Of a DNA stretch of 47,620 nucleotides, positions 4,780 through 34,405 are shown piece after piece. The translations under genes were made by a program, and so were the position numbers. The notes beneath the pieces are model-generated. The model was not told the DNA's origin. It did not search any database and saw nothing but the letters and a program-made list of their open reading frames with translations. Origin of the DNA: a virus; the IMG/VR virus record IMGVR_UViG_3300027969_000152, positions 1 to 47,620 of that record, one strand, 5' to 3'. Numbering within the stretch: position 1 is the stretch's first letter; every line of letters begins with the position of its first letter.

Positions 4780-5649
4780 TTATGACCTTAGAAGTGGGGG
4801 TATACCCGCACGACTTATCTTACTACCTAGCTTGCTAGCATTTTGTTGCATAGTTGTTGGACCAATGTCAACTGTTAATGCTGTCTTGTATCTAGGATCA
4901 TTTCTTTCTTTATAGCTAGGGATATATCCACTAGCACTTTCTGGTAAACTTAATCTTTCACTATGTAGAATGTTGAGTCTGTCAAACAATTTTTTAATAA
5001 TACCTTTACTACGCAAGGCTTTAAATGCTAAATTCTCAGGACCAAACTCACCGTGTAAATGTAATCCGTTTTTGCGATATTTCTTAATCTTGTCTATTAC
5101 ATTTTGTATCTTGTTTGGATCATTGTGTTTTAATGCTACTTTAGCCAAGTCACGCATTTTATTAAACTTTAACTTTGCAGATATTTGGTCTAGATTAGCA
5201 CGTGATTTTTTGGGTAGCTTGAGCCATTTGTCATTTAAAATACTATACTCACCCAAGCTGATAACGGGTTCATTAGCGTCTTGTATATATAATTCTACTT
5301 CATATCCATTTACTAGAATGTTGTGTGTATCGTTATATAATGTTTTTTTAGCGTGAAACAATTCACGGTAAACTAATTCGTCATTTAATTTACTCATATC
5401 TACTAAGATATGCAAATCAATATCGCTGTGTTTTGTATAAGTAAAGGCAGCATTACTACCGGACAATGTAATGTCCATTACTTGTAGATTGTCAAGTCCT
5501 AGATGGTCAATGAAGTCTCCCGCAATTAACAATAATTGCTCTCTTACGTCATCACGCATAATATCACCCGCAAAAATCGCATGATTTAAGTTATCATGGA
5601 AATATATTGCGTCATGTAGCTTGAAACTGTCTAATTCTTTTAAATTCAT
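4780..5649 (-). CDS. Predicted nucleotidyltransferase (Pol beta-type fold)
   Basis: This 289-aa protein has the nucleotidyltransferase signature GSNAAF...HSDIDLHI at residues 64-80: the GS motif, then D76-x-D78 as metal ligands, with a later acidic strand YEVELYI (E117/E119). The family transfers nucleotides to proteins, RNA or small molecules; the substrate here is unknown. The C-terminal half (about 150-289) is Lys-rich and helical and has no match I recognise. The start is ATG 5649; there is no Shine-Dalgarno sequence, and a CATAAATAC late-promoter motif ends 4 nt upstream, so the mRNA may be leaderless. A strong terminator insulates it from the glycosyltransferase gene upstream. Confidence 0.7.
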   Translation of the reverse strand: MNLKELDSFKLHDAIYFHDNLNHAIFAGDIMRDDVREQLLLIAGDFIDHLGLDNLQVMDITLSGSNAAFTYTKHSDIDLHILVDMSKLNDELVYRELFHAKKTLYNDTHNILVNGYEVELYIQDANEPVISLGEYSILNDKWLKLPKKSRANLDQISAKLKFNKMRDLAKVALKHNDPNKIQNVIDKIKKYRKNGLHLHGEFGPENLAFKALRSKGIIKKLFDRLNILHSERLSLPESASGYIPSYKERNDPRYKTALTVDIGPTTMQQNASKLGSKISRAGIPPLLRS

Positions 5650-5653
5650 ATGT

Positions 5654-5662
5654 GTATTTATG
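5654..5662 (-). promoter_or_regulatory. Late-promoter-like motif CATAAATAC
   Basis: It matches 7 of 8 bases of the T4 late consensus TATAAATA. It lies just downstream of a terminator and 4 nt before the start codon at 5649. Confidence 0.6.
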
Positions 5663-5663
5663 C

Positions 5664-5694
5664 AAAAAGGCTAACACAGTTGCCTGTGTTAGCC
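5664..5694 (-). terminator. Intrinsic terminator after glycosyltransferase gene
   Basis: A perfect 11-bp stem (ggctaacacag / ctgtgttagcc) with a 4-nt loop is followed on the minus strand by TTTTT. It ends the transcript from the gene at 5717-6637, and a late promoter follows at once. Confidence 0.9.
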
Positions 5695-5716
5695 CTAGGG
5701 GGTAAGAAGTCTACTA

Positions 5717-6637
5717 TTAAGCGGCTGCTTCTATAGTAGTTTCTTGAGGTGTTGCATCAACTGTTGTAGCTGAGATGGCTTGTTGTTCTTGTTGCTTCTT
5801 CTGTACATCTTGAACATACATAGGACCGATTGTGTCCATTAAATGTTGTTGATTTTCCATACAGAATACATATGAACCTGAGTGGCGTAGTAATACACGT
5901 TTATCAACATATACTTTACCTGCGATATCACGCCAGTTTTCACAGAATGTCCAGTCTTCACTGTAGTAACGATTTTGACGAACTGCTGTGTCAAAGTATG
6001 TCTTTAAGTGTTGGTCGTATTTTGGATCTAATCCAATGTCATTTTTGTATTGCTTAACAGCTGGATGAGATTTAAGTTTCTCAAATACATGACGTTTCAT
6101 TAACAAAAATCCTGTACCTGCTTTACTTACTTCTTGGAATCCATCAGTACCTTCTTCAGCACCTTCAAATCCATTAACTACCCACTTGATAGGCATAGTC
6201 TTCATCGGATACAATCCACCGATAACGTCTACATCACGGTTTAGCAATACTAACAAGTGCCATGGTTCCCAACCAATATCAGCATCAATGAACATTAAAT
6301 GTGTTGAATCTTTTTGTTCTAGGAATTTAGCTGTTAGTGTGTTACGGGCACGACTGATAAGACTCTCGTTAACCATTGTTTCCAATGTCCAGTCAATACC
6401 AAGTTGACGGGCGGTGTTAGCCCACTTGATGAATGACATGAAAGTTGATTCAGTCAACATACCACCGTAACATGGCATAGCGATATGCACACGGGTAGTA
6501 CGCAAGAAATCAACGTTAACTTGAACTTGATTTCCTTGAGCTTGTGTTTGCTCTGCTGCCGCTTTTTCAGCGATTTCCTGTACCATTTCTACTGGTACAG
6601 TTTTCTCTTCGGTTTTTTTGGTTTTCTTTGTTGCCAT
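5717..6637 (-). CDS. GT-A fold glycosyltransferase-like protein
   Basis: This 306-aa protein has a Lys/Glu/Gln-rich tail (1-45), then a GT-A-like core beginning VHIAMPCYGGM (about 50-60). MFIDADIGWEPW at about 115-126 carries the D118-A-D120 metal/sugar-nucleotide motif. Similar proteins are common in T4-like phages and are thought to glycosylate DNA, virion or host surface molecules; the substrate here cannot be told. A GAGG ribosome-binding site precedes the ATG (ACGAGGACCAAATG). The gene is followed by a strong terminator and preceded by a 57-bp AT-rich gap containing a weak late-type TGTAAATA near 6662. Confidence 0.7.
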   Translation of the reverse strand: MATKKTKKTEEKTVPVEMVQEIAEKAAAEQTQAQGNQVQVNVDFLRTTRVHIAMPCYGGMLTESTFMSFIKWANTARQLGIDWTLETMVNESLISRARNTLTAKFLEQKDSTHLMFIDADIGWEPWHLLVLLNRDVDVIGGLYPMKTMPIKWVVNGFEGAEEGTDGFQEVSKAGTGFLLMKRHVFEKLKSHPAVKQYKNDIGLDPKYDQHLKTYFDTAVRQNRYYSEDWTFCENWRDIAGKVYVDKRVLLRHSGSYVFCMENQQHLMDTIGPMYVQDVQKKQQEQQAISATTVDATPQETTIEAAA

Positions 6638-6694
6638 TTGGTCCTCGTTAAAATGTATAATTATTTACACACTGAGGAGCAGTACGAAATATTT

Positions 6695-8923
6695 TTATTT
6701 TTCGTCTAAAAAATCAGATGATTCGTTAATTCCCGCTTTTTTAGGGCGATTGACAGTAATCTTAACAAACTCTTTGTCGTCTTGTTTAGGTGACGGTTTA
6801 TCTTTATAATTCTGAACATCCTGATATTGCTTAATAGCAGATTGTTTGGTTACTTCGTTGACTTCACCTTCTTCGTTAGCCAATAATTGTTGTAATTCCT
6901 CATCGCTAGCTAGTTCCAAATCACTTGCATCGTAATTTCCAGTACTAACTAACTTACGAATCAATGCCATACGTTCATCAAAACCCTCTTTTAATGCAAC
7001 CTTCATTAACTTAACAAATTGAATTTTCTTTTCTAATGATGCTTCTTTAAGTAGTGGCTTAGCTTTACGAACAATATCAATAACACTTTCTTTCAGTGCT
7101 TTGTCTTTGATTTGTTTAACTGCTTTTTGTTTTGGTTCTTTTACTTGTTTAGGTACGTTTAGTCTTGATTTTGCTCTGTTCATAAATTCTAATACCTCTG
7201 CGTCACTTAATGCATCGGGCATTGCTTCACGCCAGTATGCAAATTGTTGTTCTTCTGTTGCGTTAGGTTCTTTTAATATCTCACGCATTGGTGTTGCTCT
7301 TGGTCCTTCTTCACTTTGTGCAGGATCATTTACTTGTTGTCGCGGAATGATTTGTAGACTTTCTAGTCCATAGCTTTGATAAGGAACAGCTCCAGATTTG
7401 TCTGGTCTAACTAACCATTGAAATTCTGGTACTTCAGCCTTACCCAAAACTAAAATAATATTTTTATACTGACTGCTTAAACTAGGAAATATCTGATTCA
7501 AACTTTGACCAGTATGAAATATGCCTGCATGTTGCGGGAAATTTTTCTTGTATATATAAAGTTTTTCTTCTGGAGTTAACGGGTCATCTTTCCCCATCTT
7601 TTGTGACACAAAGAAAAATGGTGTTGCCTTTGATTCTTGTGCTTGAACAATAACTGCTTGTGCTAATAACATGTGACCTTTATGTCCCATGCCACGTCCC
7701 CAACCAACTACCGCATCTACCTTAGGTTGTGCAGGTTTTGCTACCGCTTCAGTAATCTTCTTTGGCGCCCAGTTTTGTTGGTCAATTAATTTTAAGAATT
7801 GTCCGGGAAGTGGATTATCAAAACTAATTTCAGGGTGTGCTTGTACGTATCCTTCTGGATTAGTTTGCATAATCCCACCATGTAATCCAATACTTAGTGA
7901 CTTGATGATTTGCATCTTAGCATTAGTAAGTCCTTCAACCGCACCTAATGTTGCTTCATAACCTTTTTGGTCTGCTAACATTCCTTGTGCTTGACCTTCG
8001 CTTAGATTAGCTTGTGCCCATGCTGGGAAATCTTGTACTAGTCCTTGTGTTCTTAAATGAGTGTTAAGATATGTGTATAATATTCCACCTGGTTTGCTTA
8101 GTCCCTTTTTAGGTGCAAGATAATTATCAATGACATTAGCGTTACTACTAATAAAGCTACCAACTTTGTCAATATAACTTGTGTCAACACCGGGCATTTC
8201 TTCCACGTATGTAGTGCCTTGTACAATGATGCCTGGCTTAGATAAATTCTCTGCATTTGGATATCTACCTTCGTCACTGCTACCCAATGTAGGGAACCAA
8301 CCAGTAGAAGCAACCATTAACTTTGCATTTAGTTGTTCAGGTTTACCTATTTGTTTACCTAATTTACTATTTGCTGGAATATGAAACCCAGTAATGTTTG
8401 GTTTAAAGTCAAATGTTTTTGTGTTTTTATTATACACAGGCATTGCAGTTTCCCCGTCCGGCTTGACACCGGGATAAAACAATAAACCACCTTCTAAGTA
8501 ACCTGAATCAGGACTAATCTGTTCAAACAACGGCCACAAGTCTGCTACTTGTTTAGCAAATTGTGTACGACTAGCATCTGCACCGCCACCTGTACCCAAG
8601 ATAAAATTCATAATATCTTGTGGATTGTTTGGTAATGTATTTACACCTGCTTTAGTTTGCATTGAACCTCGACCTAGATAAGCCCACGCATTCTTTGGTA
8701 TCAGTCTAAAGACACCTTTTTCATCACGACCCCAATACATAACTGGCATGCCGTCCCATTTTAATTCAATTGAATCATAGTTGTCGACCATGTGACTCAT
8801 ACGCTCAACTGCATGTAGTCCGCCGCTACTACCATTTGAAATGACGAGGTCCTCTATGTGTTGGTACTTACGTCCAACGCCCGGTGCTGCCGCTTCAAAT
8901 AATAATACGTCTGATAATTTCAT
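6695..8923 (-). CDS. Fusion: ligase-like KxDG domain (DUF6267-like) plus HxGH nucleotidyltransferase
   Basis: This 742-aa protein appears to have two catalytic domains. Residues about 18-270 resemble the cyanophage DUF6267 family and contain ELKWDGMP (K55), the lysine motif of nucleic-acid ligases and capping enzymes, and later YLEGGLLFY (142-150), like ligase motif III/IV. Residues about 400-560 look like a cytidylyltransferase/NMNAT-type domain: GRGMGHKGHMLL with H414-K-G-H417, DPLTPEEKLYIY (447-458), and ATPMRE (543-548), like the family's SATxMRE motif. The C-terminal 150 residues are charged and helical. The leader MKLSDVLLFE-AAAPG resembles a T4 capsid-targeting sequence, and an ITE-A site (390-393) lies between the domains. 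The start overlaps the upstream stop by ATGA. Confidence 0.65.
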   Translation of the reverse strand: MKLSDVLLFEAAAPGVGRKYQHIEDLVISNGSSGGLHAVERMSHMVDNYDSIELKWDGMPVMYWGRDEKGVFRLIPKNAWAYLGRGSMQTKAGVNTLPNNPQDIMNFILGTGGGADASRTQFAKQVADLWPLFEQISPDSGYLEGGLLFYPGVKPDGETAMPVYNKNTKTFDFKPNITGFHIPANSKLGKQIGKPEQLNAKLMVASTGWFPTLGSSDEGRYPNAENLSKPGIIVQGTTYVEEMPGVDTSYIDKVGSFISSNANVIDNYLAPKKGLSKPGGILYTYLNTHLRTQGLVQDFPAWAQANLSEGQAQGMLADQKGYEATLGAVEGLTNAKMQIIKSLSIGLHGGIMQTNPEGYVQAHPEISFDNPLPGQFLKLIDQQNWAPKKITEAVAKPAQPKVDAVVGWGRGMGHKGHMLLAQAVIVQAQESKATPFFFVSQKMGKDDPLTPEEKLYIYKKNFPQHAGIFHTGQSLNQIFPSLSSQYKNIILVLGKAEVPEFQWLVRPDKSGAVPYQSYGLESLQIIPRQQVNDPAQSEEGPRATPMREILKEPNATEEQQFAYWREAMPDALSDAEVLEFMNRAKSRLNVPKQVKEPKQKAVKQIKDKALKESVIDIVRKAKPLLKEASLEKKIQFVKLMKVALKEGFDERMALIRKLVSTGNYDASDLELASDEELQQLLANEEGEVNEVTKQSAIKQYQDVQNYKDKPSPKQDDKEFVKITVNRPKKAGINESSDFLDEK

Positions 8924-9753
8924 TTTCTGTTTTTTTGCACAAACTGTTCGGCAAGCATTACTAATTCTTGCAATTCTTCTATACTCTCACAATTCCATCT
9001 GCGTAGTGCCAATGCTTTGGGGGTAGGTTTACCATTAGGCTTTTTCATAGGACCTTTGTTGCCGCCCATTCTAGCACAGAAACTTTTACGACGGTTGGCA
9101 GCTTTGCTGCCTTTCTTTAATTTACTTGGCTTAGTTGTTACCGCAGTCTTTAACTTACTACCTGGATTTTCTCTACGATAAGCATTCACAGCCTTTTGAC
9201 TCATTCCGGAAGTCTTGTCTTTCTTATTAACTTTGTTCCAGTCTTCCGCCACACCTTGCTGACCTGTCAATGCTTGTAATAATGCTCTAGCAACTACACG
9301 ATCCTTTTCTTGTTCTTCATCAGACAACTGTGCATATCCAATGTTCATTAACTTTTCTCGTTGTTGAAGTTTTGCTTCTAGTTTGCCAGCAGCCTTTAAT
9401 TTTTCTGTGTCGTCAAATTGATCTGGATCTTGCACGAATGCTCTTGCTGTTACATTCCAACCTTTATGGATAGCATCACTGATTGCTTCAATATCAGTAA
9501 CACCCTTATCAATCATTTGTTTAGCATAAGCGGCTGATTTCAAGTTAGCTTGCCATCCAAATGTATTACCTGGACTGCTACGACCATATCCATAGGCTGC
9601 ATCTAAGGCTGCATCACTAATTGCGGCTAATTGATTAATATCTAGTTGGCTGTCTGAGCCTTCTGAAACTCTTTTTTTCTTTTTCTTAGCAATAGCAATT
9701 GCTGCCTGTTGTGCAGGATTAACCGCTTCAGTTATAATCTCAGTTATTCTCAT
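8920..9753 (-). CDS. RyR-like domain plus DUF6321-like basic domain protein, candidate packaged protein
   Basis: This 277-aa protein starts MRITEIITE-AVNP, a capsid-targeting-like leader ending in ITE. Residues about 88-162 (AISDAIHKGWN...GYAQLSDEEQEKDRVVARALLQAL) resemble the RyR repeat, a small helical module. Residues about 184-255 (AVNAYRRENPGSKL..., RRKSFCARMGG..., ALALRRWNC) resemble the phage DUF6321 domain, a Lys/Arg-rich module with two conserved cysteines that may bind nucleic acid. It overlaps both neighbours by ATGA, so the three genes are translationally coupled. The biochemical activity is unknown, and the domain assignments are from memory of the families. Confidence 0.55.
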   Translation of the reverse strand: MRITEIITEAVNPAQQAAIAIAKKKKKRVSEGSDSQLDINQLAAISDAALDAAYGYGRSSPGNTFGWQANLKSAAYAKQMIDKGVTDIEAISDAIHKGWNVTARAFVQDPDQFDDTEKLKAAGKLEAKLQQREKLMNIGYAQLSDEEQEKDRVVARALLQALTGQQGVAEDWNKVNKKDKTSGMSQKAVNAYRRENPGSKLKTAVTTKPSKLKKGSKAANRRKSFCARMGGNKGPMKKPNGKPTPKALALRRWNCESIEELQELVMLAEQFVQKNRK

Positions 9754-10511
9754 TTTAATATCTCCAATATATTACGAAACCATTCATTTACGTTTGGTGT
9801 AGCTTGTTGCCAACTACGTCCAGCACGTGCTGAACTCATAATTTCTTCTTTGCGCTTAGGATCAGGTATCTTTGCCATCATTGATTCTACACTACCTAAG
9901 TCAGCACCTTTTGCACCTCTACCTAATAGGTACTGTGCAATAGTATCCCAATCATCACTTAGTAATTCAGCTTTTTTACCAGCCGAATCACGCTTATATA
10001 ATCCTTCGTCAGGACTCCATAGCATACCCTGTGTACTAGCAAGTGCATTCATAACTAGTTGTTTGTTCACACCCTTATAAGGACTACCTTGTGGAATTTC
10101 ATGTCTATGATATACTGCAACTTTGTGAGCATTTTTTACAACTTTAATGTCAACTTGATAGAACTTATTATCCATTGGGATTTTAGAATGTACAGTTACA
10201 CCTGCCAATCTTGTTTCAATGTTTTGTTTATTTAAAAAATCTGCCAATGCTCGGCGAGTATCTGATGCATCTTTTGTTTGAAACTGTTGCATTAAAGTAG
10301 ACAATTCTACCATTGAATCTAAATCATTTGATGGGACAACATTGCCATTTGCATCTTGTCGAGGCTTCCAGCATGAACCAATTACTTCTAATGTAACTCC
10401 CAATGGTGCTAGGTATTGTTGCGTAGTATCAGACAGTGGCTTTCCGACAACAGACGGATCAAAGTTAGTCTCAACGTCTGGCCAAATGTTTCCACCTTCA
10501 AATAATTTCAT
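9750..10511 (-). CDS. Second nucleotidyltransferase-fold protein, candidate packaged protein
   Basis: This 253-aa protein has IGSCWKPR (44-51, GS motif), NDLDSMVEL (62-70, D63-x-D65) and FYQVDIKVV (D121), the arrangement of metal-binding acids in Pol-beta-type nucleotidyltransferases. The spacing between GS and DxD (about 17 residues) is longer than usual. The leader MKLFE-GGN carries an LFE site like the prohead-protease consensus. The substrate is unknown. It follows the 112-aa virion-type gene by 1 bp and overlaps the RyR-like gene by 4 bp (ATGA), so it belongs to the same cistron group as the ligase-like fusion. Confidence 0.5.
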   Translation of the reverse strand: MKLFEGGNIWPDVETNFDPSVVGKPLSDTTQQYLAPLGVTLEVIGSCWKPRQDANGNVVPSNDLDSMVELSTLMQQFQTKDASDTRRALADFLNKQNIETRLAGVTVHSKIPMDNKFYQVDIKVVKNAHKVAVYHRHEIPQGSPYKGVNKQLVMNALASTQGMLWSPDEGLYKRDSAGKKAELLSDDWDTIAQYLLGRGAKGADLGSVESMMAKIPDPKRKEEIMSSARAGRSWQQATPNVNEWFRNILEILK

Positions 10512-11510: not shown

Positions 11511-12212
11511 TTAATCCTGACGCTTCTCTAGTTTGAATCTGCGCTTAATCATATCCCCAAACATCATTGAAAGTAATGTATTGGTGCTTTCTTCGTCAAA
11601 TTCAATATAATAATGTGCTGAACAGTAGTTTATATGCCAAGATTTATAGTGCCCTTTTAGCCAATGACGTAGGGCATCACTAGGGACAATAACAGTTTTG
11701 GTGTTCTTATATCTGTGTATGAACTCTGATAATTCATCTTTAAAAGTATCCTTGACACGCTTACTTTTAAGATAAACACGATATTTATGCTTGGGCTCTT
11801 TTACGAAGGTTTTGATACCTGTAGGAGCAATATCAATGATTTCGCTCACATCTATATTAGATGTCATTCCCCTCAATGTTTGTAACAAAGTCAAATCATT
11901 GCTAAAAACACCAGCAGTATTACTCTCAACTCTGATGGTGCATGTTTTGTTTGTTTTAACATTAACATTGCGCCACTCAATAAAACTCTCAATATCATCT
12001 AGGTCAATTGCGGCTATTCGGCTAGAATCATAATATCTACGATTATTATCTAATCGTTTTAAATAGTCTAGCATTGTATCACATCCATGTATCCATGCTA
12101 GTCCCGGCATTGTTACTCTAGCACGGTATCTATACTTACCGTAATACAATACATCCCGATAGTCAATTAAATCTATATCTGGTAATTTAGCTGACGACAT
12201 TAATGAATCCAT
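11511..12212 (-). CDS. Conserved phage protein of unknown function
   Basis: This 233-aa protein is rich in Tyr, Arg, Lys and Asp. Features seen are YYGKYRYRARVTMPG (28-42), a central acidic/hydrophobic part and a C-terminal region HWLKGHYKSWHINYCSAHYY. The style recalls unnamed T4-like cyanophage proteins, but I recognise no catalytic motif. It overlaps the ClpA-like gene by 26 bp if the first ATG (12212) is used; the in-frame ATG at 12200 is an alternative. Neither has a strong Shine-Dalgarno sequence, so translational coupling to the unfoldase gene is likely. Confidence 0.5.
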   Translation of the reverse strand: MDSLMSSAKLPDIDLIDYRDVLYYGKYRYRARVTMPGLAWIHGCDTMLDYLKRLDNNRRYYDSSRIAAIDLDDIESFIEWRNVNVKTNKTCTIRVESNTAGVFSNDLTLLQTLRGMTSNIDVSEIIDIAPTGIKTFVKEPKHKYRVYLKSKRVKDTFKDELSEFIHRYKNTKTVIVPSDALRHWLKGHYKSWHINYCSAHYYIEFDEESTNTLLSMMFGDMIKRRFKLEKRQD

Positions 12213-14463
12213 TACTATCTACTTCTACATTGATTTTTTGTGTTACGTCAAACACAATTACATTGTCTACTAAGTTTACCGTAACGGTGCTACTCTTAAT
12301 CTTCTCAAAAAGAATCTTCTTACTCAATGGTACACGAATCAACTCATCAATTTTACGACTTAGAGGACGTGCGCCCATCTTGCTATCATAACCGTGTTCT
12401 GCAAGATATTCAACAACCGGTTCGCTTAAGTTAAGAGTAATGTCATGTACATTTCTGAGGCTTTTCTTCAATTCATCCGTGAACTTAATAACAATCTTCT
12501 TAATAGCCAACATATCTAGTTTGTTGAACTTACAAACCATGTCAATACGATTTCTAAACTCTGGCTTAAAGAACTCTTTCAATGCTTTATCATCATCACC
12601 ACTACGTTCTTGTGCTCCGAAACCAATTTGATTGCGTTCACCGTCACTACTGCCCAAGTTACTGGTCATAATAATGATACAGTTTTTAGCATTGACTTCT
12701 TTACCGTTGCTACCTGTAACTCGACCTTCATCAAGCAATTGTAAGAATACGTCAAAGACTTCTGGATGTGCCTTTTCAACTTCATCAAACAACAAAATTG
12801 AATATGGGTTCTTGCTCAAGTCATTGATAAGCTTACCGCCACCTAATTCACCTTCACCAAAGCCAACATATCCTGGGGGTGCACCAATGAACTTAGCAAT
12901 AGCATGTTTCTCACTGAACTCACTCATGTCGTACTTGAGTAATGGCATATCAAGGTTCTTAGATAGCAACTTAGCTAACTCTGTTTTACCTGTACCAGTT
13001 GGACCTAAGAACAAGAAACTACATGTTGGTTTAGTTTCGTTACCGATACCAGCAAATGATACATATACACGCTCAAGTACTTTATCTACTGTTTCATTCT
13101 GACCATATAGTTTGTCTTTGATGTTAGATTCAAGGTTTTTGATTCTATCGTCTGTAACATCACTCATCTTATCAGCAGGAACACCTGTATATCGTTCAAC
13201 TTGTTCGTGTATCAACTCTTTAGTGATTAATGCACCAACATTCTCAAGCACACGTTGTTTAGCACATGCCGCATCCAACAAGTCAATTGATTTATCTGGA
13301 TTCTTGCGGTCGTGAATATAACGAATAGCACATTCTACACTTGTATTGATTGCATCATCTGTAATCTCTACACTATGGAAGTCATTCAGTCTAACACTAA
13401 GACCTTTAAGAATACGAACTGTACTTTCTTTACTTGGTTCATCAATAGATACACGATAGAACCTACGCATTAATGCACGATCCTTCTCAAAACTCTCGTA
13501 GAATTCTTCCCAAGTTGTACTTGCTATGACTTTTAGTGTACCTTTAGTAATTGCGGGTTTAATCATATTGGCAAAGTCAACACCACCACCGCTAGCATTT
13601 CCAGAACCCTTCATGGTATGTGCTTCGTCAATGAATAGGATAGCTTTACGTTTTGTATTCAATGCTTGCAATACATTTTTAATCTTTTCTTCAAAGTCAC
13701 CGCGATATTTACTTCCAGCAAGTAGATTAGCAACTTCAAGTGAATATAATTCGTGATCCTTTAAGAATTCTGGAACTTGTTCATCTACAATTTGCTGTGC
13801 TAGACCTTCTGCAATAGCAGTCTTACCTACACCGGGGTCGCCAACCATTAATACGTTTGATTTGAATCGCTTAGCCAATACATTTACAATGTCATCAACT
13901 TCTTTACTACGACCAATCATTGGTTCAAGCTTACCATCTTTAGCTAACTGTGTTAGATTAGTAGTGTATTCTTCTAAAATATCATCTGCTTGATTATCAC
14001 TTAGTGCGGAAGTATAATTACCACCTTTGTAATGTTTCTGCCAGAATGGAACAAATTCATTTTTAACAATGCCATACTTCAATAAAAAGTAATGTGCATG
14101 ACTGTTTGTCTCTGCACTTATGCTTAAGTATAAATCAATGGTTGTAATTGTCTTACGACCAGTAAAAAGAACTTGTGTAACACCACGATTGATAGTGCGT
14201 TCTAAACTATTAGTCTTTCTAGGTTGAACTTCTTCACCAGGATTAACATTAACTTGGATAGCACGTAAGCTGTCTAAATAAATACCTATTTCTTTGGATA
14301 GATTAGTTACGTCAGCACCATACTGGTCTAAACATTTATTAAAGGGCGGGTGATTGACTAACGCCAACAACAAATGCTCTACCGTGCAATATTGATGCTT
14401 GCGTTGTTTAGCAAATTCAATAGCCTGTTCGATAATTGCTTCTATTTCTACTGAACTGTGCAT
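12187..14463 (-). CDS. clpA-like: ClpA-like AAA+ unfoldase
   Basis: At 758 residues it has the length of E. coli ClpA. It shows a Clp_N-like start (EHLLLALVNHPP), a first AAA+ module with Walker A GDPGVGKT (208-215) and Walker B LFIDEAH (276-282), a second with GPTGTGKT (487-494) and LLFDEVEKAHPEVF (557-570), pore loops KYRGDFEEK (252) and GYVGFGEGE (531), and no ClpB-type middle coiled coil. NQIGFGAQ (611-618) occupies the position of the IGL/IGF loop by which ClpA and ClpX dock on ClpP, so partnership with host ClpP is likely. The RBS AAGGAA precedes ATG 14463. It is co-transcribed behind the dnaJ-like gene. Confidence 0.9.
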   Translation of the reverse strand: MHSSVEIEAIIEQAIEFAKQRKHQYCTVEHLLLALVNHPPFNKCLDQYGADVTNLSKEIGIYLDSLRAIQVNVNPGEEVQPRKTNSLERTINRGVTQVLFTGRKTITTIDLYLSISAETNSHAHYFLLKYGIVKNEFVPFWQKHYKGGNYTSALSDNQADDILEEYTTNLTQLAKDGKLEPMIGRSKEVDDIVNVLAKRFKSNVLMVGDPGVGKTAIAEGLAQQIVDEQVPEFLKDHELYSLEVANLLAGSKYRGDFEEKIKNVLQALNTKRKAILFIDEAHTMKGSGNASGGGVDFANMIKPAITKGTLKVIASTTWEEFYESFEKDRALMRRFYRVSIDEPSKESTVRILKGLSVRLNDFHSVEITDDAINTSVECAIRYIHDRKNPDKSIDLLDAACAKQRVLENVGALITKELIHEQVERYTGVPADKMSDVTDDRIKNLESNIKDKLYGQNETVDKVLERVYVSFAGIGNETKPTCSFLFLGPTGTGKTELAKLLSKNLDMPLLKYDMSEFSEKHAIAKFIGAPPGYVGFGEGELGGGKLINDLSKNPYSILLFDEVEKAHPEVFDVFLQLLDEGRVTGSNGKEVNAKNCIIIMTSNLGSSDGERNQIGFGAQERSGDDDKALKEFFKPEFRNRIDMVCKFNKLDMLAIKKIVIKFTDELKKSLRNVHDITLNLSEPVVEYLAEHGYDSKMGARPLSRKIDELIRVPLSKKILFEKIKSSTVTVNLVDNVIVFDVTQKINVEVDSNGFINVVS

Positions 14464-14485
14464 ACTTGTTTCCTTAAAATCTTAT

Positions 14486-15304
14486 TTACTTGTTTCGGGA
14501 TTGCAATATAGCATCTAATATTGCGTTATCTATTTTATCAGGAACTATGGGTTTGAGCAATACATATTGGTCACCCATTTGACCATTTACTTGCAACCCT
14601 TGACCGGCTACACGCACTTTAGTGTTAGGTTGTGTTTTGGGTTTAACACCTAAATTGAATTTGGTACCAGCCAATGAAGTGAATTCAATGTCAGTACCTA
14701 CAATCAAGTCTAATACTGATATATCTACATCACTATATAAATCTAAACCTTCTCGTCTGAATTTGTCATTAGCATGTACTCTAAATTCAATGATTAACAC
14801 ACCATCGGGTATAAGATTGTCATAGCGCATTTGTCCACCGTTATCTATACCTTTTGGAATGTCAACACGGATTGTTTGATTACCTGAATGTGTTCTAAAC
14901 TGTAATACTTGTTCACCACCGGTTAATACTTGTTCTAATGTGATCCAAATTGTAGTTTTAAATGTTGGACGTTGTTGTCTTTGATGCCCAAACATTTGTC
15001 CAAACATATCATTTATGTCCATTCCACTTCTTGGATCAAAGTTAAAATTGAATCCGCCACCGAAAGGAGTTCCTGTAGTAAAGTGAAAGCCTCCTGGACC
15101 TCCACCACCAAACGGATTTGGAGTATCGTATTGTTGTTTCTTTTGTGGATCGCTTAGTGTTTCATAAGCAGTTTGAATCTTTTGAAACATAGCAGTATCA
15201 CCACCTTTGTCAGGATGATGTTGATTTGCTAGTTTGCGGTATGCTCGTTTGATATCTTCGGGGGTAGCAGTTTTGTCTACCCCCAGGGTTTGATAGTGTT
15301 CCAT
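14486..15304 (-). CDS. DnaJ/CbpA-like co-chaperone
   Basis: This 272-aa protein has an N-terminal J domain (MEHYQTLGVD..., HPD at 30-32, DPQKKQQYD), a Gly/Phe-rich linker (about 68-100) and two C-terminal substrate-binding beta domains. There is no Cys-rich zinc region, so it is of CbpA (type II) rather than DnaJ type I. J proteins stimulate DnaK ATPase; the phage version could redirect host DnaK, in line with the adjacent ClpA-like unfoldase. The J domain begins at ATG 15304, only 6 nt after a TATAAT box, so the transcript is predicted to be leaderless. Confidence 0.9.
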   Translation of the reverse strand: MEHYQTLGVDKTATPEDIKRAYRKLANQHHPDKGGDTAMFQKIQTAYETLSDPQKKQQYDTPNPFGGGGPGGFHFTTGTPFGGGFNFNFDPRSGMDINDMFGQMFGHQRQQRPTFKTTIWITLEQVLTGGEQVLQFRTHSGNQTIRVDIPKGIDNGGQMRYDNLIPDGVLIIEFRVHANDKFRREGLDLYSDVDISVLDLIVGTDIEFTSLAGTKFNLGVKPKTQPNTKVRVAGQGLQVNGQMGDQYVLLKPIVPDKIDNAILDAILQSRNK

Positions 15305-28246: not shown

Positions 28247-31200
28247 TTAGATTCCGCTTAGTTTTCTAAAATCAGACAACAAATCGGTGCTATCTTTCAT
28301 TAGTGTACCTTCTGCTGTAACAATTTTAATGATTGGAGCTGTAGATTGACTGCGTTTTTCGCCCATGCCACCACCGCCACTTAGTGTTCTCATCATAAAT
28401 TCTAAGTCTTGGTCTGCTGTATCATCAGCATCATTAGCATATTCTTCTAATTGTCTTGACAACTCGGCTTTAGCCTGCTGAAGCATTTTTAGTTCGTGTT
28501 CATAATGAGAAGGATCGCCGCCAAATTCATAAGCCATCTGACTCAATTGTTTTGGAGTGGCTGCTTTGATTCTTTCCTGTGTCTCTGAATCGTATTGAGA
28601 GGCTGCGCTTTCATTTACTTCTTCGTAGTCACATCCACATGATTCCATTGGGTAACCGCATTCATTACAAGTTTCTTGTCCTTCATCGACTTCTTCTTTG
28701 CCACCTTGTTCGTCTTGTCCTAGACGTCCGGATACTACATCACCTTGAGTGACTTCATCATACGGTTTAGCATTATTTGCTAAGTTACCATCATTAGCTT
28801 CTTGAACTGGATATTCTTTACCGTCTACTTCAAAACTGCTTTGGTGATTTTTTACAGCCTCAGCACGGTTTCCACTGAATTCGTTACCTTCTTCCACACC
28901 AGCTTCATCTACTTTTTCAGGTTCATCGTCACATGCACATGGACTCTCTCCGCATGTTTCGCATTCACCTTCATGTTCTTCGTGGTTATGTTCTTCACCA
29001 CTATCTTCAATGCCAGTCATTTTCTTAATCAACGCCATCATGTCATCGCCGCCTTCATCACCCATTGAATCATGTGCGTGAGGGTCACCAACTGCAATTA
29101 ATTGTGCTTCTGGGCCTTGATGTTCATCACCTGACATTGGAAGACCATAGTTGTTAACTTCTTGACCGTGTTCTTGTTTAGCACCACCTAAACCACCTAA
29201 ACCTGCGTTACGCAATAGTTCAATGATTTCGTGTGCATTACCTTCAGTAGCACTTACATTAACACTGTCATGACCTTGGTCATCAATTGTTGTGCTGATT
29301 GTAAGATTCTCATTCAATAATGAATCCAATTCTTTGTCCCAGCTTTCTAATTGTAGGTCTTTCATATTTTTTCCTTCAAATGCTCTACGTGAGCTTGCTA
29401 AGTTTCTAATGAAACTACCTGCTTCTTTAACACCTTCTGGATCTCCGCTTGGTGCCTTAACTGTTCCTCTTGGATTAGATTGCCATGTACCTTGCACAAT
29501 ACTACCCATACCATTTTCTGGCTTCTTAGGAGGCATATAAGGTGGAGTTTGCCCCATTCCGTTTGTATTAGTTTTAGCTTCATCAACTGTACCTTGACCT
29601 AAATAATGGTGATAAGCTGTAACAACTTCACCTAAGAAATCTGGATCATGGTTTAATTTGTAATGTGCAGACTTAGGTGTCATGCCCATTTGAATCATTT
29701 CGTGATATACTGCATTAGCAAATTCATCAGAGTCAGAAGCCAATGTAGGATTTTCTTGCGCTAAAATTTTACCAATTTTCTCGTAAGTATATTCGCTTTC
29801 TTCCATTACACGTGCTTCAGAAACTTTCTTCTTGTCACCTAATGCTTTGAAGTCAGCACTAGTTAATTTACCTTTTGGTGGTGCAACATCTAAGTCATCT
29901 TGGTCGCCCGGTAAATCTTTTGTCTCTTTAACTTTCTTAGCAACTGGATTCTTTTTCTTGAAGGACGGATAAGGTGCTGTCTGCGTGAATGCGTTGGAGG
30001 TTTTAGCTGGCTTCCACTTGTCGCCAATGGCTTTTTTCATTGGCTCTTCTTTGTCACCATCAATTTCTGATTCATTAATCATGTTATCAGAAACTACTTC
30101 CATCCAATCTTTTAGACTATGCTTAACAGACTTCTTACCAACTTCACCTTTTGGTTTGCCACCTAACATGCCTTGTAAGCCTGATGTATCAAACTTGGTA
30201 TCATTACCGTGTTCGTCTTTATCACCTTTTGTTGGGCGACCACGACCACGTTTTGGCGCGTCTTTTTTAGCTTCTGAGCCTTTATCAACTTTGCCAATCT
30301 TATGTCCATATTGGTCACGAACATCTTCTTTGCCATAGCTGTTACCATAAGTACCTTTGTGTACAGTAACTTCTGATTCTGTTAGTTCAGGTAGACCTGA
30401 AAATTTTCTTAGTTGATTTAGTTCCATAGTTGATTCTCTCATAATTGATTCTTCAAAGTCACGTGTTGCCTGAGTTTCAGGTCCACCTTGATTTGGTTGT
30501 ACACCTTTACCAAGCATATCTGCTTTATCACGTTGAAATTCTGCCATGTCAGCATCGCCCGAAGTTGTTGGGGCAGGTGATTTAACTCCTGCCATTGGGC
30601 TACCTGAGCCGGCTGGTCCTGCAGTTGTTCCTGTCTGTGAACCTGCATTATTTTGTGCTGTTCTTAATGAAGATGCATTACTGACACCTGCCATTGGACT
30701 ACCTGATGTTGTTGCGGCTTGTGTATTGCTTGATTGATTCATTGCTGATTGAGCAGGTGCTTGTTGTGGTGCCATTGTAGTATTGTTAGCAGTACCTGAA
30801 CCAGCATTGACACCTGCCATTGGGCTACCTGATGTTGGTTGTGTCGCAGGTGCTCTTGTTCCTAAAGCTCCTTGATTAAATGCTGACGGAGTTTCTGCCG
30901 GTGCTCTTGTTCCTAAATTACCTTGATTGAATCCAATACCTGCTGACTGAGTTCCTGGATTAGCTGGAGCTGCTGTTGGTGCAGGTTGTCCGCCCATGAT
31001 GCCTGTCTTAGCTAATTCATTTGCACCGCCTGCTGTTTGTGCTTGACTACCTACTGCTGGACCTTGTGGTTGAGGTTTAGCCGCCGGTGCTGTTGTTGCT
31101 GCCTGTGTCTTTGGCATTGTTGGATTAACAAATCCTCTTCCGCCGCCTGCTGATGGAGGTTGTTTTGCAGATGTGCCACCTGCCGCTGCCATTGCTGCTC

Positions 31201-32863
31201 CCATGTTGGGCGGGGTTGTTGTTGCAGTCTGTGTGGGTGCCGCACGTCTTGCCGCTAATTCTGCTTGTGCATTGCCTCTTCCGCCACCAACAGTAGCGGC
31301 TTGTATACCAGCACCACGTTGAAATGATCCGGGAGGACCTGATGCACCAGCAGATGTTACTGCCGGAGTCGCTGCCGGTGGTTTTACTTGATTCATTGCT
31401 GATTGAGCAGGTGCTACTTGCGGAGTAACTTTAGCTGATCCTGCGCCAGCTGGTTGACCTACTGGAGCTGCTGGTCCAGTAGTTCCTTTTTGTGTCCCTG
31501 CTTGATTTTGCATTGCTCTTAGTGATGATGCATTAGTAGCAGTTGTTGGTGCCGTTTGAGATACCGGTGCTTCTGTTAGTTGAGACATACCTGAAAGTTC
31601 CCTTATTCTGTTTAATTCTTCTTTGATGCCAAAGAAGTTCTTAAGACCTTGTAAATTCTTTTCACCCTGTGCTCTATTCTTATCATAGCTACCAGGAGTT
31701 ACTTTACCAAATCTATCAGTATCACCAATCTCAGCATCGCTACGTGTTCTGATAGCATTACCTTCACGGTCTTTCCATGTTTCACCTGAAGCATTCTTAA
31801 CTTCAGGACCTTTGTCATACGGATTTTCTGGAGTACCTTTAACTGGTTCTGGAGCAGGGGTAGTAGTTGCAGCCTGAGTTGGTTCAGGAGGTTTTGTTAT
31901 TGCTTGAAGAATATTGGTATTTGTTTGATTTACTGCGTTTTGTCCTGCTGGATCAACAAAAGCATTTGCTCTTGCATCGTCACTATCATCCATTGAAGTT
32001 ACAGGTGGTGCTACCGGTTCTGGTTTTACTGGTTCTGGAGCCGGAGCTGGTGGTTTTTCTAATTCTCTAGGTAGTACTGAATCTGGTTTGTCTAATTCTG
32101 CTCTAGGTTGACCTGATGGTCGTGTCATTCTTTGTGCAATTTTGTCTAGTGTGTCGCCTTTTTGTATCTTATACATATTGCCGCCACCTAAATCAATACT
32201 GTCACCTGCTTTAATTTGATTAACGTTTTTAATTTTATCTGGGTTCAATGCCATCAATGATTGAGCACCTTGATTACCTTTGTAGCCTAAGTTTTGCTGT
32301 GGTTTATTTCCTGTAGTAGTTGTTGCTGGATTAGTGTTTGGTTTAGTAACTGTGTTGCCAGATGAATCTATATCTTTACCACCTAGAATTTCTGAATTAC
32401 GTCTTTCGATTTCGGCTGGTGTTAGTTTATTGCCAGGAGTAGTTGTTGCTGGACTTGTTTTATCAGCAGATGGCTTCAATGCTAACCCACCGGCTGTAAG
32501 ACCTGCGGCTGCAACAGTACCACCGGCTACTTTTGTACCAGTTGACACACCTTTTTTCGGCGGAGGTGCCTGAGTAAATCTTGGCTCTGCACCTCTTGGT
32601 GCATTACCCTTTGCCGCGGCTGCGGCATTTTGAGCTTTTAAGTCAGCCTGTTGTTTTATAAAATCTTGGGCTTCTTTACTTTGTCCTGGCTTTGGTACAT
32701 TTGGATTAGCAGATGCCGCTCTTAACTTGTCTGCTTGAGACAAAGTTTTTACTTCTTTTCCTGCAATACTTGTTGCAACATTTGGCTTAATACCAATCTT
32801 TTCTAAGCCTGCTGGATTTACTGGAAGAGCCTCATCCAAGTTTTTTAATTCATTAATTTTCAT
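28247..32863 (-). CDS. Giant low-complexity protein with LysM-like domain and Cys clusters, candidate capsid-internal protein
   Basis: This 1538-aa protein has a leader MKINELKNLDE-ALP like a capsid-targeting sequence, a hydrophobic Gly/Ala stretch (107-131) and a LysM-like segment (YKIQKGDTLDKIAQRM, 231-246). A long Ala/Pro/Thr/Gln-rich region contains SGSPMAGV and PAQSAMNQ repeats, and charged blocks follow (KRGRGRPTKGDKDEHGN). Near the C-terminus are two Cys clusters (CETCGESPCAC and CNECGYPMESCGC) that could bind zinc. The motif ELNxxRxxSG with LTE after it recurs (RIRELSGMSQLTE, QLRKFSGLPELTE) and the protein ends DFRKLSGI. The LTE/LNE/INE sites fit a prohead-protease consensus. It could be an internal/core or ejected protein; the function is inferred. 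Confidence 0.55.
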   Translation of the reverse strand: MKINELKNLDEALPVNPAGLEKIGIKPNVATSIAGKEVKTLSQADKLRAASANPNVPKPGQSKEAQDFIKQQADLKAQNAAAAAKGNAPRGAEPRFTQAPPPKKGVSTGTKVAGGTVAAAGLTAGGLALKPSADKTSPATTTPGNKLTPAEIERRNSEILGGKDIDSSGNTVTKPNTNPATTTTGNKPQQNLGYKGNQGAQSLMALNPDKIKNVNQIKAGDSIDLGGGNMYKIQKGDTLDKIAQRMTRPSGQPRAELDKPDSVLPRELEKPPAPAPEPVKPEPVAPPVTSMDDSDDARANAFVDPAGQNAVNQTNTNILQAITKPPEPTQAATTTPAPEPVKGTPENPYDKGPEVKNASGETWKDREGNAIRTRSDAEIGDTDRFGKVTPGSYDKNRAQGEKNLQGLKNFFGIKEELNRIRELSGMSQLTEAPVSQTAPTTATNASSLRAMQNQAGTQKGTTGPAAPVGQPAGAGSAKVTPQVAPAQSAMNQVKPPAATPAVTSAGASGPPGSFQRGAGIQAATVGGGRGNAQAELAARRAAPTQTATTTPPNMGAAMAAAGGTSAKQPPSAGGGRGFVNPTMPKTQAATTAPAAKPQPQGPAVGSQAQTAGGANELAKTGIMGGQPAPTAAPANPGTQSAGIGFNQGNLGTRAPAETPSAFNQGALGTRAPATQPTSGSPMAGVNAGSGTANNTTMAPQQAPAQSAMNQSSNTQAATTSGSPMAGVSNASSLRTAQNNAGSQTGTTAGPAGSGSPMAGVKSPAPTTSGDADMAEFQRDKADMLGKGVQPNQGGPETQATRDFEESIMRESTMELNQLRKFSGLPELTESEVTVHKGTYGNSYGKEDVRDQYGHKIGKVDKGSEAKKDAPKRGRGRPTKGDKDEHGNDTKFDTSGLQGMLGGKPKGEVGKKSVKHSLKDWMEVVSDNMINESEIDGDKEEPMKKAIGDKWKPAKTSNAFTQTAPYPSFKKKNPVAKKVKETKDLPGDQDDLDVAPPKGKLTSADFKALGDKKKVSEARVMEESEYTYEKIGKILAQENPTLASDSDEFANAVYHEMIQMGMTPKSAHYKLNHDPDFLGEVVTAYHHYLGQGTVDEAKTNTNGMGQTPPYMPPKKPENGMGSIVQGTWQSNPRGTVKAPSGDPEGVKEAGSFIRNLASSRRAFEGKNMKDLQLESWDKELDSLLNENLTISTTIDDQGHDSVNVSATEGNAHEIIELLRNAGLGGLGGAKQEHGQEVNNYGLPMSGDEHQGPEAQLIAVGDPHAHDSMGDEGGDDMMALIKKMTGIEDSGEEHNHEEHEGECETCGESPCACDDEPEKVDEAGVEEGNEFSGNRAEAVKNHQSSFEVDGKEYPVQEANDGNLANNAKPYDEVTQGDVVSGRLGQDEQGGKEEVDEGQETCNECGYPMESCGCDYEEVNESAASQYDSETQERIKAATPKQLSQMAYEFGGDPSHYEHELKMLQQAKAELSRQLEEYANDADDTADQDLEFMMRTLSGGGGMGEKRSQSTAPIIKIVTAEGTLMKDSTDLLSDFRKLSGI
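30540..31560. repeat. Imperfect short-peptide repeats within the giant gene
   Basis: Within this stretch the minus strand encodes several copies of SGSPMAGV, PAQSAMNQ, NASSLR..QN.AG.Q.GTT and FNQG.LGTRAPA. The DNA copies (e.g. attgggctacctgatgttg, gcaggtgcttgttg) are diverged. The region is likely to vary in length among relatives. Confidence 0.7.
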
Positions 32864-32864
32864 T

Positions 32865-34196
32865 TTAATTCCTATATCCCATTAAGTATTTAACTCTTTC
32901 CAATTCGGTAGAGCTTTCTTTAAATGTATCTTTACTAAACATACTGCCGTTGTCAGTATCTGTATTTTGCGGTTTGCTGTTTGGATTTTCTGTTGGTTTT
33001 TCTGCTGGTTTTTCTGCATCTTGTTTTGCTTTATAGGCAGCATCCCATTTCTTAGCAGAATCACTATCATTATATTTTTTTGTATGTGGGCCTGAATCGT
33101 CAGGAGAAAAAGCATATTTTTCAGCACCTTTAATAGCAGCGTAAGTTAGTGCGCCACCTACCGCCAGATTGCCTGCTGTTCTTCCCGCCCAATTACCTAC
33201 TCTTCTACCAATACTAGGGTTTACTGTTTTATCAATGTCACCTACAGTTTTTTCTACTTTTGCTAAACGTTGTTCAGCATCTGTTGCTGAAGTCTTTGGT
33301 TGTGTATCTGTAGTCTTTGGCTTAGGTGTCGGTGTCGGTGTCGGTGTCGGTTTTTTAGTAGGGATAGAGCTTGTTGGTCCTTGACCTCCAGACATTTTTG
33401 GTGGCTTTAATGAACCGGGTGTGGGTGTTGAAGCTGAACGTAATTTGTTCGACAAAGAAGTAGTACCTGCGGCTTTACCACCGAATCCGCCACTGCCGCC
33501 CTCTAAATCACGTGCAAGAACATTTGCACCTTTATCAAATTTACCTTCATCTACATAAGGATTGTTAGGGTCTACTTTTTTTGCACCTGCGGCTGCTGCC
33601 TTATCTGCGGCTATGCCACCTCCTATAGCTCCTGTACCTTTTACAACTTTACCTGCAACTTTACCTGCCTTATTTGTTGCAACTGCTGATGGTACAACTT
33701 TAGATAATCCTTTAGAGATTAAGTTAGCACCTTTCATTCCTGCATTGAATACACTAAGTGGTGCAAAATAAGAACCTATTTCTCCTACTTTACTTGCAAT
33801 CGGACTACGGTCTAATGCGTCAGCAGATGCGGCATATGTGTTTTTTAATTCGTCATCATAGTTGTTACTACCCATCATTGATTTCATTTTTGCGTCAAGT
33901 TTATCAGCATATCCAAATGTCAATGTATTGGTGCCTGCTCTTACTGCATCATCCACTGCTTGTGCGGTATTGTAAGCCGCTTGTCCTGGATTGTTTACTG
34001 CAAATTTAGCACCGGCTGCAATATCACGACCGGCTTGTTTATATGTTTCAGGATCAATTGCGGCTTTACCTGCTCTCGTGGCTACATCACCAACGGCAGA
34101 AGCAACATTTTTTCCATAATCAACTATATCATCCCCCCAACCTTCAGTAGTGGGACGAGATTTAGATTCACTGACTATGATTTCTTTTATGTTCAT
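32865..34196 (-). CDS. Low-complexity Ala/Gly/Lys-rich protein, candidate internal/ejected protein
   Basis: This 443-aa protein starts MNIKEIIVSE-SKSRP, a leader that only approximates the T4 capsid-targeting pattern (VSE, not L/IxE). It has long Ala/Gly helices (GKVVKGTGAIGGGIAADKAAA), a Pro-Thr repeat PTPTPTPTPK, a possible membrane segment (WAGRTAGNLAVGGALTYAAI) and a C-terminus ELERVKYLMGYRN that resembles the recurring EL..(R/K)..SG motif of the adjacent giant protein. Function is unknown. ATGA overlap couples it to the 70-aa membrane protein gene upstream, and the giant gene begins 1 bp after its stop. Confidence 0.5.
   Translation of the reverse strand: MNIKEIIVSESKSRPTTEGWGDDIVDYGKNVASAVGDVATRAGKAAIDPETYKQAGRDIAAGAKFAVNNPGQAAYNTAQAVDDAVRAGTNTLTFGYADKLDAKMKSMMGSNNYDDELKNTYAASADALDRSPIASKVGEIGSYFAPLSVFNAGMKGANLISKGLSKVVPSAVATNKAGKVAGKVVKGTGAIGGGIAADKAAAAGAKKVDPNNPYVDEGKFDKGANVLARDLEGGSGGFGGKAAGTTSLSNKLRSASTPTPGSLKPPKMSGGQGPTSSIPTKKPTPTPTPTPKPKTTDTQPKTSATDAEQRLAKVEKTVGDIDKTVNPSIGRRVGNWAGRTAGNLAVGGALTYAAIKGAEKYAFSPDDSGPHTKKYNDSDSAKKWDAAYKAKQDAEKPAEKPTENPNSKPQNTDTDNGSMFSKDTFKESSTELERVKYLMGYRN
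33325..33348. repeat. Hexanucleotide microsatellite (ggtgtc)x4
   Basis: Four perfect tandem copies of ggtgtc encode the PTPTPTPT stretch of the 443-aa protein. A length-variable locus is likely, and changes would stay in frame. Confidence 0.9.
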
Positions 34197-34405
34197 TTTC
34201 TTTTATCTAGCTTGTTTTCAATACGTTGTAATTGTGATTGTAGTTCTGCTACCTTTTCAGACACGTTGTCCATTTTAGTACTATTAATTTCAACTTTTTT
34301 ATCAATGGCTGACATGTTAGAATTGACGGTAAGATAACCTGTACCACCTAGACTACATGCACCTATTACTATCCAAGTCAATTGGCTTGTATTAAAATCG
34401 ATCAT
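34193..34405 (-). CDS. Small membrane protein with coiled coil
   Basis: This 70-aa protein has one N-terminal membrane segment (LTWIVIGACSLGGTGYLTV, 9-27) followed by a coiled-coil helix (NVSEKVAELQSQLQRIENKL). Such single-TM, coiled-coil proteins occur in T4-like marine phages near head or core genes; the role is unknown, and spanin- or holin-like functions are only guesses. It overlaps both neighbours by ATGA. Confidence 0.6.
   Translation of the reverse strand: MIDFNTSQLTWIVIGACSLGGTGYLTVNSNMSAIDKKVEINSTKMDNVSEKVAELQSQLQRIENKLDKRK

Follow-up and report, generated by a model that had tools for sequence, protein, structure and literature searches.

A nucleotidyltransferase-rich gene cluster of a T4-like phage as a probable part of a capsid-cargo island with a coding DNA seam

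In T4-like phages, modules are shuffled by mobile regulatory cassettes with short conserved DNA at the module borders, between genes. In T4 a leader of 10 residues is sufficient for packaging, and the prohead protease gp21 cleaves after L-x-E or I-x-E (PMC9026906, available text); T4-type internal proteins are described as diverse, with the leader as their only common feature (PMC3012670, available text). Polyvalent proteins, known from phages and conjugative elements (Iyer et al. 2017), are multi-domain proteins that are predicted to be injected and include ART, kinase, GNAT and Pol-beta nucleotidyltransferase domains; the available text of the paper on them contains neither the term 'capsid targeting' nor the term 'linker' (PMC5512222). 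In this study, we analyzed the IMG/VR virus record IMGVR_UViG_3300027969_000152 (positions 1 to 47,620; this whole stretch of 47,620 nucleotides is called the window below), focusing on a cluster of minus-strand genes named here NT289, GT306, LIG742, RYR277 and NT253 (Table 1) and on its relatives in other phages.

We consider it probable, at roughly 0.6, that the cluster is part of a capsid-cargo island of a T4-like phage, with injected enzymes and with modules exchanged at a short seam. The cargo proteins would enter the prohead core by means of an N-terminal leader some 9-10 residues long (M[KR]..EF[IL]xE↓, the arrow marking the expected cut), a T4-gp21-type S77 prohead protease would remove it and may also cut QGVAE seams between domains, and the enzymes would be injected together with the DNA. 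NT253 and the DUF6267 domain of LIG742 would most likely fill gaps and seal or adenylate nucleic-acid ends, helped by the HIGH-type adenylyltransferase fused to DUF6267, and the set would thereby protect or repair the genome as it enters, or host RNA, during the first minutes. The cargo genes may evolve via cassette exchange at a coding seam of 16-18 bp. A counter-defence role, one of the proposals of the first-pass annotation of this DNA, is compatible with the cargo reading; a PADLOC defence-system scan gave weak matches only.

Leaders were searched with a fixed regular expression, M[KR].{1,4}[DEQNS][FILVYH][FILVM].E at the gene start, alternative ATGs within 45 residues being allowed; genes of relatives were called by a simple greedy choice of open reading frames (ORFs) with no trained gene finder. 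The expression was matched at the starts of 83 of 1176 dereplicated genes (117 loci) vs 6 of 6642 internal Met residues. From the 83 matches 53 proteins were picked, the LIG family and near copies being left out; they have only MRAxEFIxE in common, with a mean column identity of 7%, and the E of their consensus is partly forced by the expression. Their Pfam matches include GNAT in four, GH19 in two, and ART-PolyVal, Kinase-PolyVal, RegB_T4 and deaminase in one each, with GP88 among the others. In positions 1-150000 of T4, used as positive control, two of 230 gene calls matched, namely ipII and ipIII, both internal head proteins, and T4 ipI and alt were missed; the expression matched none of the 42 gene calls of T7 and none of the 70 of lambda. 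In a shuffled-start test with a looser expression, 11 matches were obtained, and shuffled starts gave 4.7 on average and 12 at most. An S77 prohead protease of the T4 type (gp21) was above the Pfam cut-off in 10 of 17 relatives, and the major capsid protein of one relative, G002, has LLSE↓SS near residue 45. The likeness to T4 IPI, IPII, IPIII and Alt with their gp21 processing lies in the leader ending in x-E↓A, the S77 protease of relatives and the mutually unrelated mature parts. Unlike the T4 internal proteins, those considered here come in far larger arrays, are enzymes rather than small inhibitors, include multi-domain proteins, have a seam at the DNA level and are known from genes.

The virion proteomes of distant cyanophage relatives are consistent with packaging. 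Table 3 of the S-CREM2 report (PMC10665884) gives 52 virion proteins, including three of the four cluster homologues identifiable in that phage: gp156 (NT289 homologue, 31%, E 2e-28), gp154 (a cytidylyltransferase, homologue of the HIGH domain, E 2e-4, leader MKNFSSFLTE) and gp137 (DUF6321 homologue, 50%, E 7e-24). The fixed expression is matched at the first start of three of 215 S-CREM2 gene calls, all three virion-listed; when alternative starts are used, the fourth match is a baseplate protein, also virion-listed. Further leader-like starts in the virion list were seen by eye in gp14, gp136 and gp12, and in an enrichment test among detected proteins a narrower leader pattern, picked afterwards, gave 4/5 vs 46/210 (p 0.011). 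The S-SZBM1 cytidylyltransferase _140, with the start MRFRQFIIE↓A, is in the virion list of its report (PMC9146016), and NMNAT is reported from the virion of S-SCSM1 (PMC9602691). As a separate observation, S-CREM2 gp12 (L143, 7704-10313) is a Cas9-like virion protein in which the leader-like RFASFMAE↓A lies some 26 residues away from the annotated start.

The first-pass annotation had taken the tight coupling of LIG742, RYR277 and NT253 by ATGA overlaps as a sign of a joint pathway. A functional link is real, but it is gene fusions, stronger evidence than the overlaps, by which NT253, DUF6267 and the HIGH domain appear as a linked set. Among 21 records searched, DUF6267 was found in 16 and NT253-like proteins in 10. 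The two are a single ORF in six genomes (G006, G007, G008, G010, G012 and G014), and we regard their coupling as real because they form one polypeptide there. In G001, G002 and G003 they adjoin or have one gene between them; in G009 the arrangement is interrupted, the NT253 frame holding the initial DUF6267 piece and a second ORF the remainder. All 10 of the records with an NT253-like protein have DUF6267 fused to it, adjoining it or one gene away. DUF6267 is in turn fused to the HIGH domain in LIG742 and in S-PM2; the ligase-like fusion noted at first is one gene here and in some other genomes, but in many others two genes that overlap, with the split near residue 390, take its place. Both families are adjacent or fused in cyanophages too (S-8S55; S-PM2 A0A0M6VVW4). 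There DUF6267 starts without a leader (S-8S55, DSL-LC02 and S-SZBM1), unlike LIG742, and the cultured Kyanoviridae records searched (n=4) had no NT253-like match, unlike the window.

NT253 is, on its AlphaFold model, a protein of family-X polymerase-like palm and thumb fold and a putative polymerase. The metal-binding residues are kept in homologues: G45, S46, D63, D65 and D121 are invariant in 24 of them, and in a wider set (n=14) G45, D63, D65 and D121 are still invariant, residue 46 being S or T, which gives the triad pattern G[ST]..DxD..D. The model, with a predicted local distance difference test score (pLDDT) of 80.9, matched polymerases beta and lambda in Foldseek (3.0e-06) and 9y1h_A with VIA Z 11.2 and a root-mean-square deviation (rmsd) of 3.6 over 173 residues (model residues 10-208, palm and thumb), rows within 1 of this Z counting as tied. 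The palm and thumb fold and the triad pattern are common to NT253 and family X DNA polymerases (beta, lambda and mu); NT253 differs from them in its core, which spans about 200 residues and lacks the N-terminal 8-kDa part, and sequence profiles gave no match to them. NT253 matched no Pfam family, and DNA_pol_B_thumb on the wider set was weak (best E 0.13, in two of 14 sequences). T4 nrdC.11, an annotated nucleotidyltransferase, was tried as kin of NT289 and NT253 and gave no significant match. NT253 was also observed in two alleles, of 69-96% vs 30-35% identity to the window protein (L026, L028, L036-L038, L046, L055 and L075), both of which sit at one position within gene orders that are alike in other respects.

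The motif scheme of ligases and other covalent nucleotidyltransferases has motif I (KxDG), motif IV (EG) and motif V (K) in this order. DUF6267 shows the same order in 20 sequences, with K55, D57, G58, E357, G358 and K378 invariant in a 20-row alignment of identity down to 19%; all 20 members match PF19782 (DUF6267). A Pfam scan of these members gave no ligase family, and T4 rnlA, rnlB and gp30 compared with DUF6267 were not above noise. DUF6267 as a DNA or RNA ligase was set aside, the profiles giving no support, and our claim is restricted to ligase-like motifs. In the LIG742 model the KxDG stretch and residues 344-398 have pLDDT <50, and the fold matches are filled by the HIGH domain. This C-terminal domain is, as modelled, a HIGH-superfamily nucleotidyltransferase of Rossmann-type fold, with fold matches to NadD and PPAT (E. 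coli PPAT 1h1t_A: VIA Z 10.2, rmsd 3.1, 146 residues), a match to phrog_3041 (2.2e-18) and the HxGH-type motif GRGMGHxGHM in 19 of 19 alignment rows. The C-terminus of the LIG/HIGH protein (window 6695-6730) has an [FY][LI]DE[KE] ending in many relatives, regardless of the preceding cassettes, and is possibly a C-terminal processing or binding signal.

Several observations weigh against the cargo reading. For phages of the window's own group it is drawn from genes, and the window, a fragment, has neither an S77 protease gene nor head genes. Among the cluster proteins only RYR277 matches the fixed expression, LIG742 being one residue off; NT253 starts with just LFE↓G (MKLFE↓G), and NT289 and GT306 are without a leader. 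In G002 the expression is matched at 4 of 306 genes and also at 4 of 1197 internal Met residues, and leaders of this kind are therefore not confined to cargo. The leaderless DUF6267 protein of S-CREM2, gp87, is absent from the virion list of its report, and that of S-SZBM1, _141, which adjoins _140, is not in the list of PMC9146016. The S-CREM2 proteins detected in virions show no enrichment of a looser leader pattern (5/16 vs 45/199, p 0.30), and according to the S-CREM2 authors co-purification of strongly expressed proteins is possible (PMC10665884), a warning given likewise in the S-SCSM1 paper (PMC9602691). As to the enzymes, hhalign of DUF6267 with 10 phage DNA ligases gave probabilities of 0.1 to 2.7%, and the NT253 profile found no PolX chain in the PDB at E up to 10.

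A different use of the injected enzymes, which we regard as unlikely, is that NT289, NT253 and the HIGH domain put adenosine monophosphate or other nucleoside monophosphates on host proteins. Pol-beta nucleotidyltransferases are listed among the protein-modifying domains of injected polyvalent proteins (PMC5512222, available text), leader proteins of the islands include GNAT, ART and kinase domains, and NT289 (phrog_36119, 1.7e-38; NTP_transf_2 below the cut-off) is in relatives the N-terminal domain of proteins up to 2082 aa, of which four of five scanned have Amidoligase_2 and single ones M78 or DUF5661. However, the thumb of NT253 is of polymerase type and its fusion partner is a KxDG domain, not a protein-binding one, and the MntA model scored 13.9 bits on NT289 against a cut-off of 60. 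The AMPylation or NMPylation of host targets suggested by the first-pass annotation has found no support so far, and where it proposed a Foldseek comparison with HEPN-MNT and CD-NTase proteins, the NT253 model resembles family-X polymerases instead. A HEPN-MNT antitoxin was rejected for NT289 on the same MntA score, with no HEPN family reported among the scanned neighbours; given the listing of Pol-beta nucleotidyltransferases in polyvalent proteins, NT289 may still have a protein-modifying role. In L088, L086, L066 and L078 an NT289-type domain was seen to open proteins of 1699-2082 aa with an Amidoligase_2 match.

The exchange of modules was analyzed from RYR277, whose two domains meet at the 16-bp seam CAAGGTGTRGCGGAAG, read QGVAE. 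The DUF6321 half of its original description is firm (Table 1), but the 'RyR-like' half is weak: Pfam RyR stayed below threshold (12.9-16.3 bits vs 27.4) in three of six proteins scanned among relatives of RYR277, and the scan reported no match for the window stretch. Loci retrieved for purposes other than the seam contain QGVAE in 29 distinct contexts, and one spelling of 256 accounts for 20 of these; this spelling includes the rare Ala codon GCG (7.7%), and codon usage predicts it at 0.4%, a binomial p for it assuming independent copies, which copied seams are not. The 18-mer was found in at least 120 IMG/VR stretches. Among the matches listed, 80 loci were kept, from 71 samples; the QGVAEG frame is used by 100 of their 101 copies, and outside the element the information drops sharply, the inside being fixed by the query. 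When near copies are included, 108 ORFs have 238 seams in frame and none off-frame, and the distance between seams is divisible by three in 130 of 130 cases, with a median of 79.5 aa. When segments resembling each other over 80% of their length were compared, what adjoined them on the other side of the seam was unrelated in 58 of 65 comparisons. In the closest LIG742 orthologues, between KVALKE and EVTKQSA, five contigs differ in what one and the same pair of seams encloses, with four distinct contents among them, and the window has none. The cassettes form 114 clusters; 86 representatives were aligned and scanned, most without a Pfam match. The C-terminal tail of NT289, ASGYIPS...KTALTVD (window 4780-4935), is present in 20 of 73 distinct homologues and is retained after inserted cassettes in relatives, twice right after QGVAE. 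The 16-mer was found 11 times in a set of 22 records, in eight of them; eight of the 11 copies are within the NT289 locus or <6 kb from it, and the reversed pattern was found 0 times.

Tentatively, and at somewhat less than even odds, we propose that injected effectors are built from interchangeable cassettes at this one 16-18 bp seam of constant frame, which would serve both as recombination site and, in the capsid, as prohead-protease site QGVAE↓G. Unlike the T4-type mobile regulatory cassettes, the seam of the window's group is coding and in frame, and unlike in polyvalent proteins, the modules there are in many cases either genes of their own with a leader or linked through QGVAE. Selection on QGVAE as a feature of the protein only, a protease site or flexible linker with no recombination function, would fit the position of the seam between domains and the resemblance of VAE↓G to the L/I-x-E rule of T4 gp21. 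The shared spelling and the unrelated neighbours across the seam, however, make it improbable. Leaders are free at third codon positions, with 51 distinct MRAxEF or MKAxEF starts, and the seam is not, which argues for selection on the peptide at leaders and on the DNA at the seam. A role of the seam in internal initiation was dropped on inspection, there being no regular start codon after it. Neither QGVAEG nor DUF6321 is mentioned in the literature searched, subscription journals lying outside that scope, and seam-like module shuffling is not described in the titles and abstracts found by broader searches.

For the HIGH domain, it is quite unlikely that it acts as an NMNAT-like enzyme that restores nicotinamide adenine dinucleotide (NAD), in nucleotide or NAD metabolism, with the other genes as mere neighbours. 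NMNAT-like or cytidylyltransferase homologues are reported from the virions of S-SCSM1, S-SZBM1, S-CREM2 and S-CBWM1 and are read in this way by the authors (PMC9602691, PMC10665884 and PMC9146016, available texts), and PPAT and NadD are among the fold matches. The signature GRGMGHKGH, however, departs from the usual NMNAT one, GRFNPPxxGH in cyanophages, and its fusion partner here and in S-PM2, DUF6267, has KxDG, EG and K motifs. Least probable by far is that the seam arose as an artefact, either during assembly of the metagenomes or from library adapters. All its copies are from assembled environmental contigs, with only chance-like occurrences in named phages (six records of the collection) and none of the 16-mer in T4 or four cultured relatives. 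However, an adapter would not be expected to keep the frame as the seam does, the 80 loci are from 71 samples, and in 257 gigabases of bacterial contigs the 18-mer is found in 26 stretches, where frames are scattered (9/26 in the QGVAEG frame).

The ORFs, the nucleotidyltransferase signatures and the ATGA overlaps of the first-pass annotation were all confirmed, the overlaps being of 4 bases at 8920-8923 and 9750-9753; GT306, which it did not mention, lies between NT289 and LIG742, and it also overlooked the leaders and the seam. Its three nucleotidyl-transfer-type proteins hold up, with in fact four such domains, and a conserved neighbourhood is evident from IMG/VR loci (24 with NT253, 14 with LIG742 and 85, of which 80 were kept, with NT289) and from recurrent gene order. 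GT306 is immediately upstream of NT289 in 85 of the 92 cases where this could be tested. ATGA overlaps are kept despite changed gene order (NT253 to LIG in 31/31, LIG N-half to C-half in 32/34), one contig possibly recurring under several locus ids in these two counts. PDB profile searches with alignments of cluster proteins (A1, A2, A3, A6 and A7) gave no relevant relative. The window also holds T4-type tail sheath and tube genes, a ClpA/B-type ATPase and DnaJ; the Clp-type ATPase and DnaJ pair (12187-15304) is constantly upstream of the island, and Clp was upstream of NT289 whenever this could be tested (70/70). Outside the cluster, two large ORFs of the window, 28247-32863 and 32865-34196, have the leader-like starts MKINELKNLDEA and MNIKEIIVSES.

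Table 1. Features of the cluster and related elements in the window
Feature	Position	Strand	Details
NT289	4780-5649	minus	289-aa ORF; Pol-beta-superfamily-type nucleotidyltransferase domain, conserved C-terminal tail; G64-S65...D76-I-D78
GT306	5717-6637	minus	306-aa ORF, glycosyltransferase-like by inspection only; phrog_1574; without leader
LIG742	6695-8923	minus	742-aa ORF; DUF6267 fused to HIGH-superfamily nucleotidyltransferase
HIGH-superfamily adenylyl/cytidylyltransferase domain	7166-7726	minus	residues 400-586 of LIG742; GRGMGHKGH
DUF6267 domain	7754-8875	minus	residues ~17-390 of LIG742; K55-x-D57-G58, E357-G358, K378 invariant
LIG742 leader-like start MKLSDVLLFE↓A	8894-8923	minus	one residue longer than the fixed expression permits
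RYR277	8920-9753	minus	277-aa ORF; leader, weakly RyR-like domain, seam, DUF6321 domain
DUF6321 domain	8995-9222	minus	RYR277 residues 178-253; Pfam PF19846, 58.9 bits (cut-off 28.5), 8e-16
Coding DNA seam CAAGGTGTGGCGGAAG, read QGVAE	9243-9258	minus	RYR277, between RyR-like and DUF6321 domains; exact, single copy in window
RYR277 leader MRITEIITE↓A, capsid-targeting-like	9727-9753	minus	matches the fixed expression
NT253	9750-10511	minus	253-aa ORF; G45-S46...D63-L-D65; start MKLFE↓GGN
ORF with matching leader MKSLRSYLMES	34402-35004	minus	elsewhere in window

Most cargo domains of these phages are without known function. If the cargo reading is true, a 9-residue regular expression and a 16-bp seam would permit a direct listing of the injected proteins in a large, mostly uncultured phage group, and the polymerase-like, ligase-like and adenylyltransferase parts would make up a compact module with testable chemistry. 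It would also explain the quick change of the early weapons of these phages.

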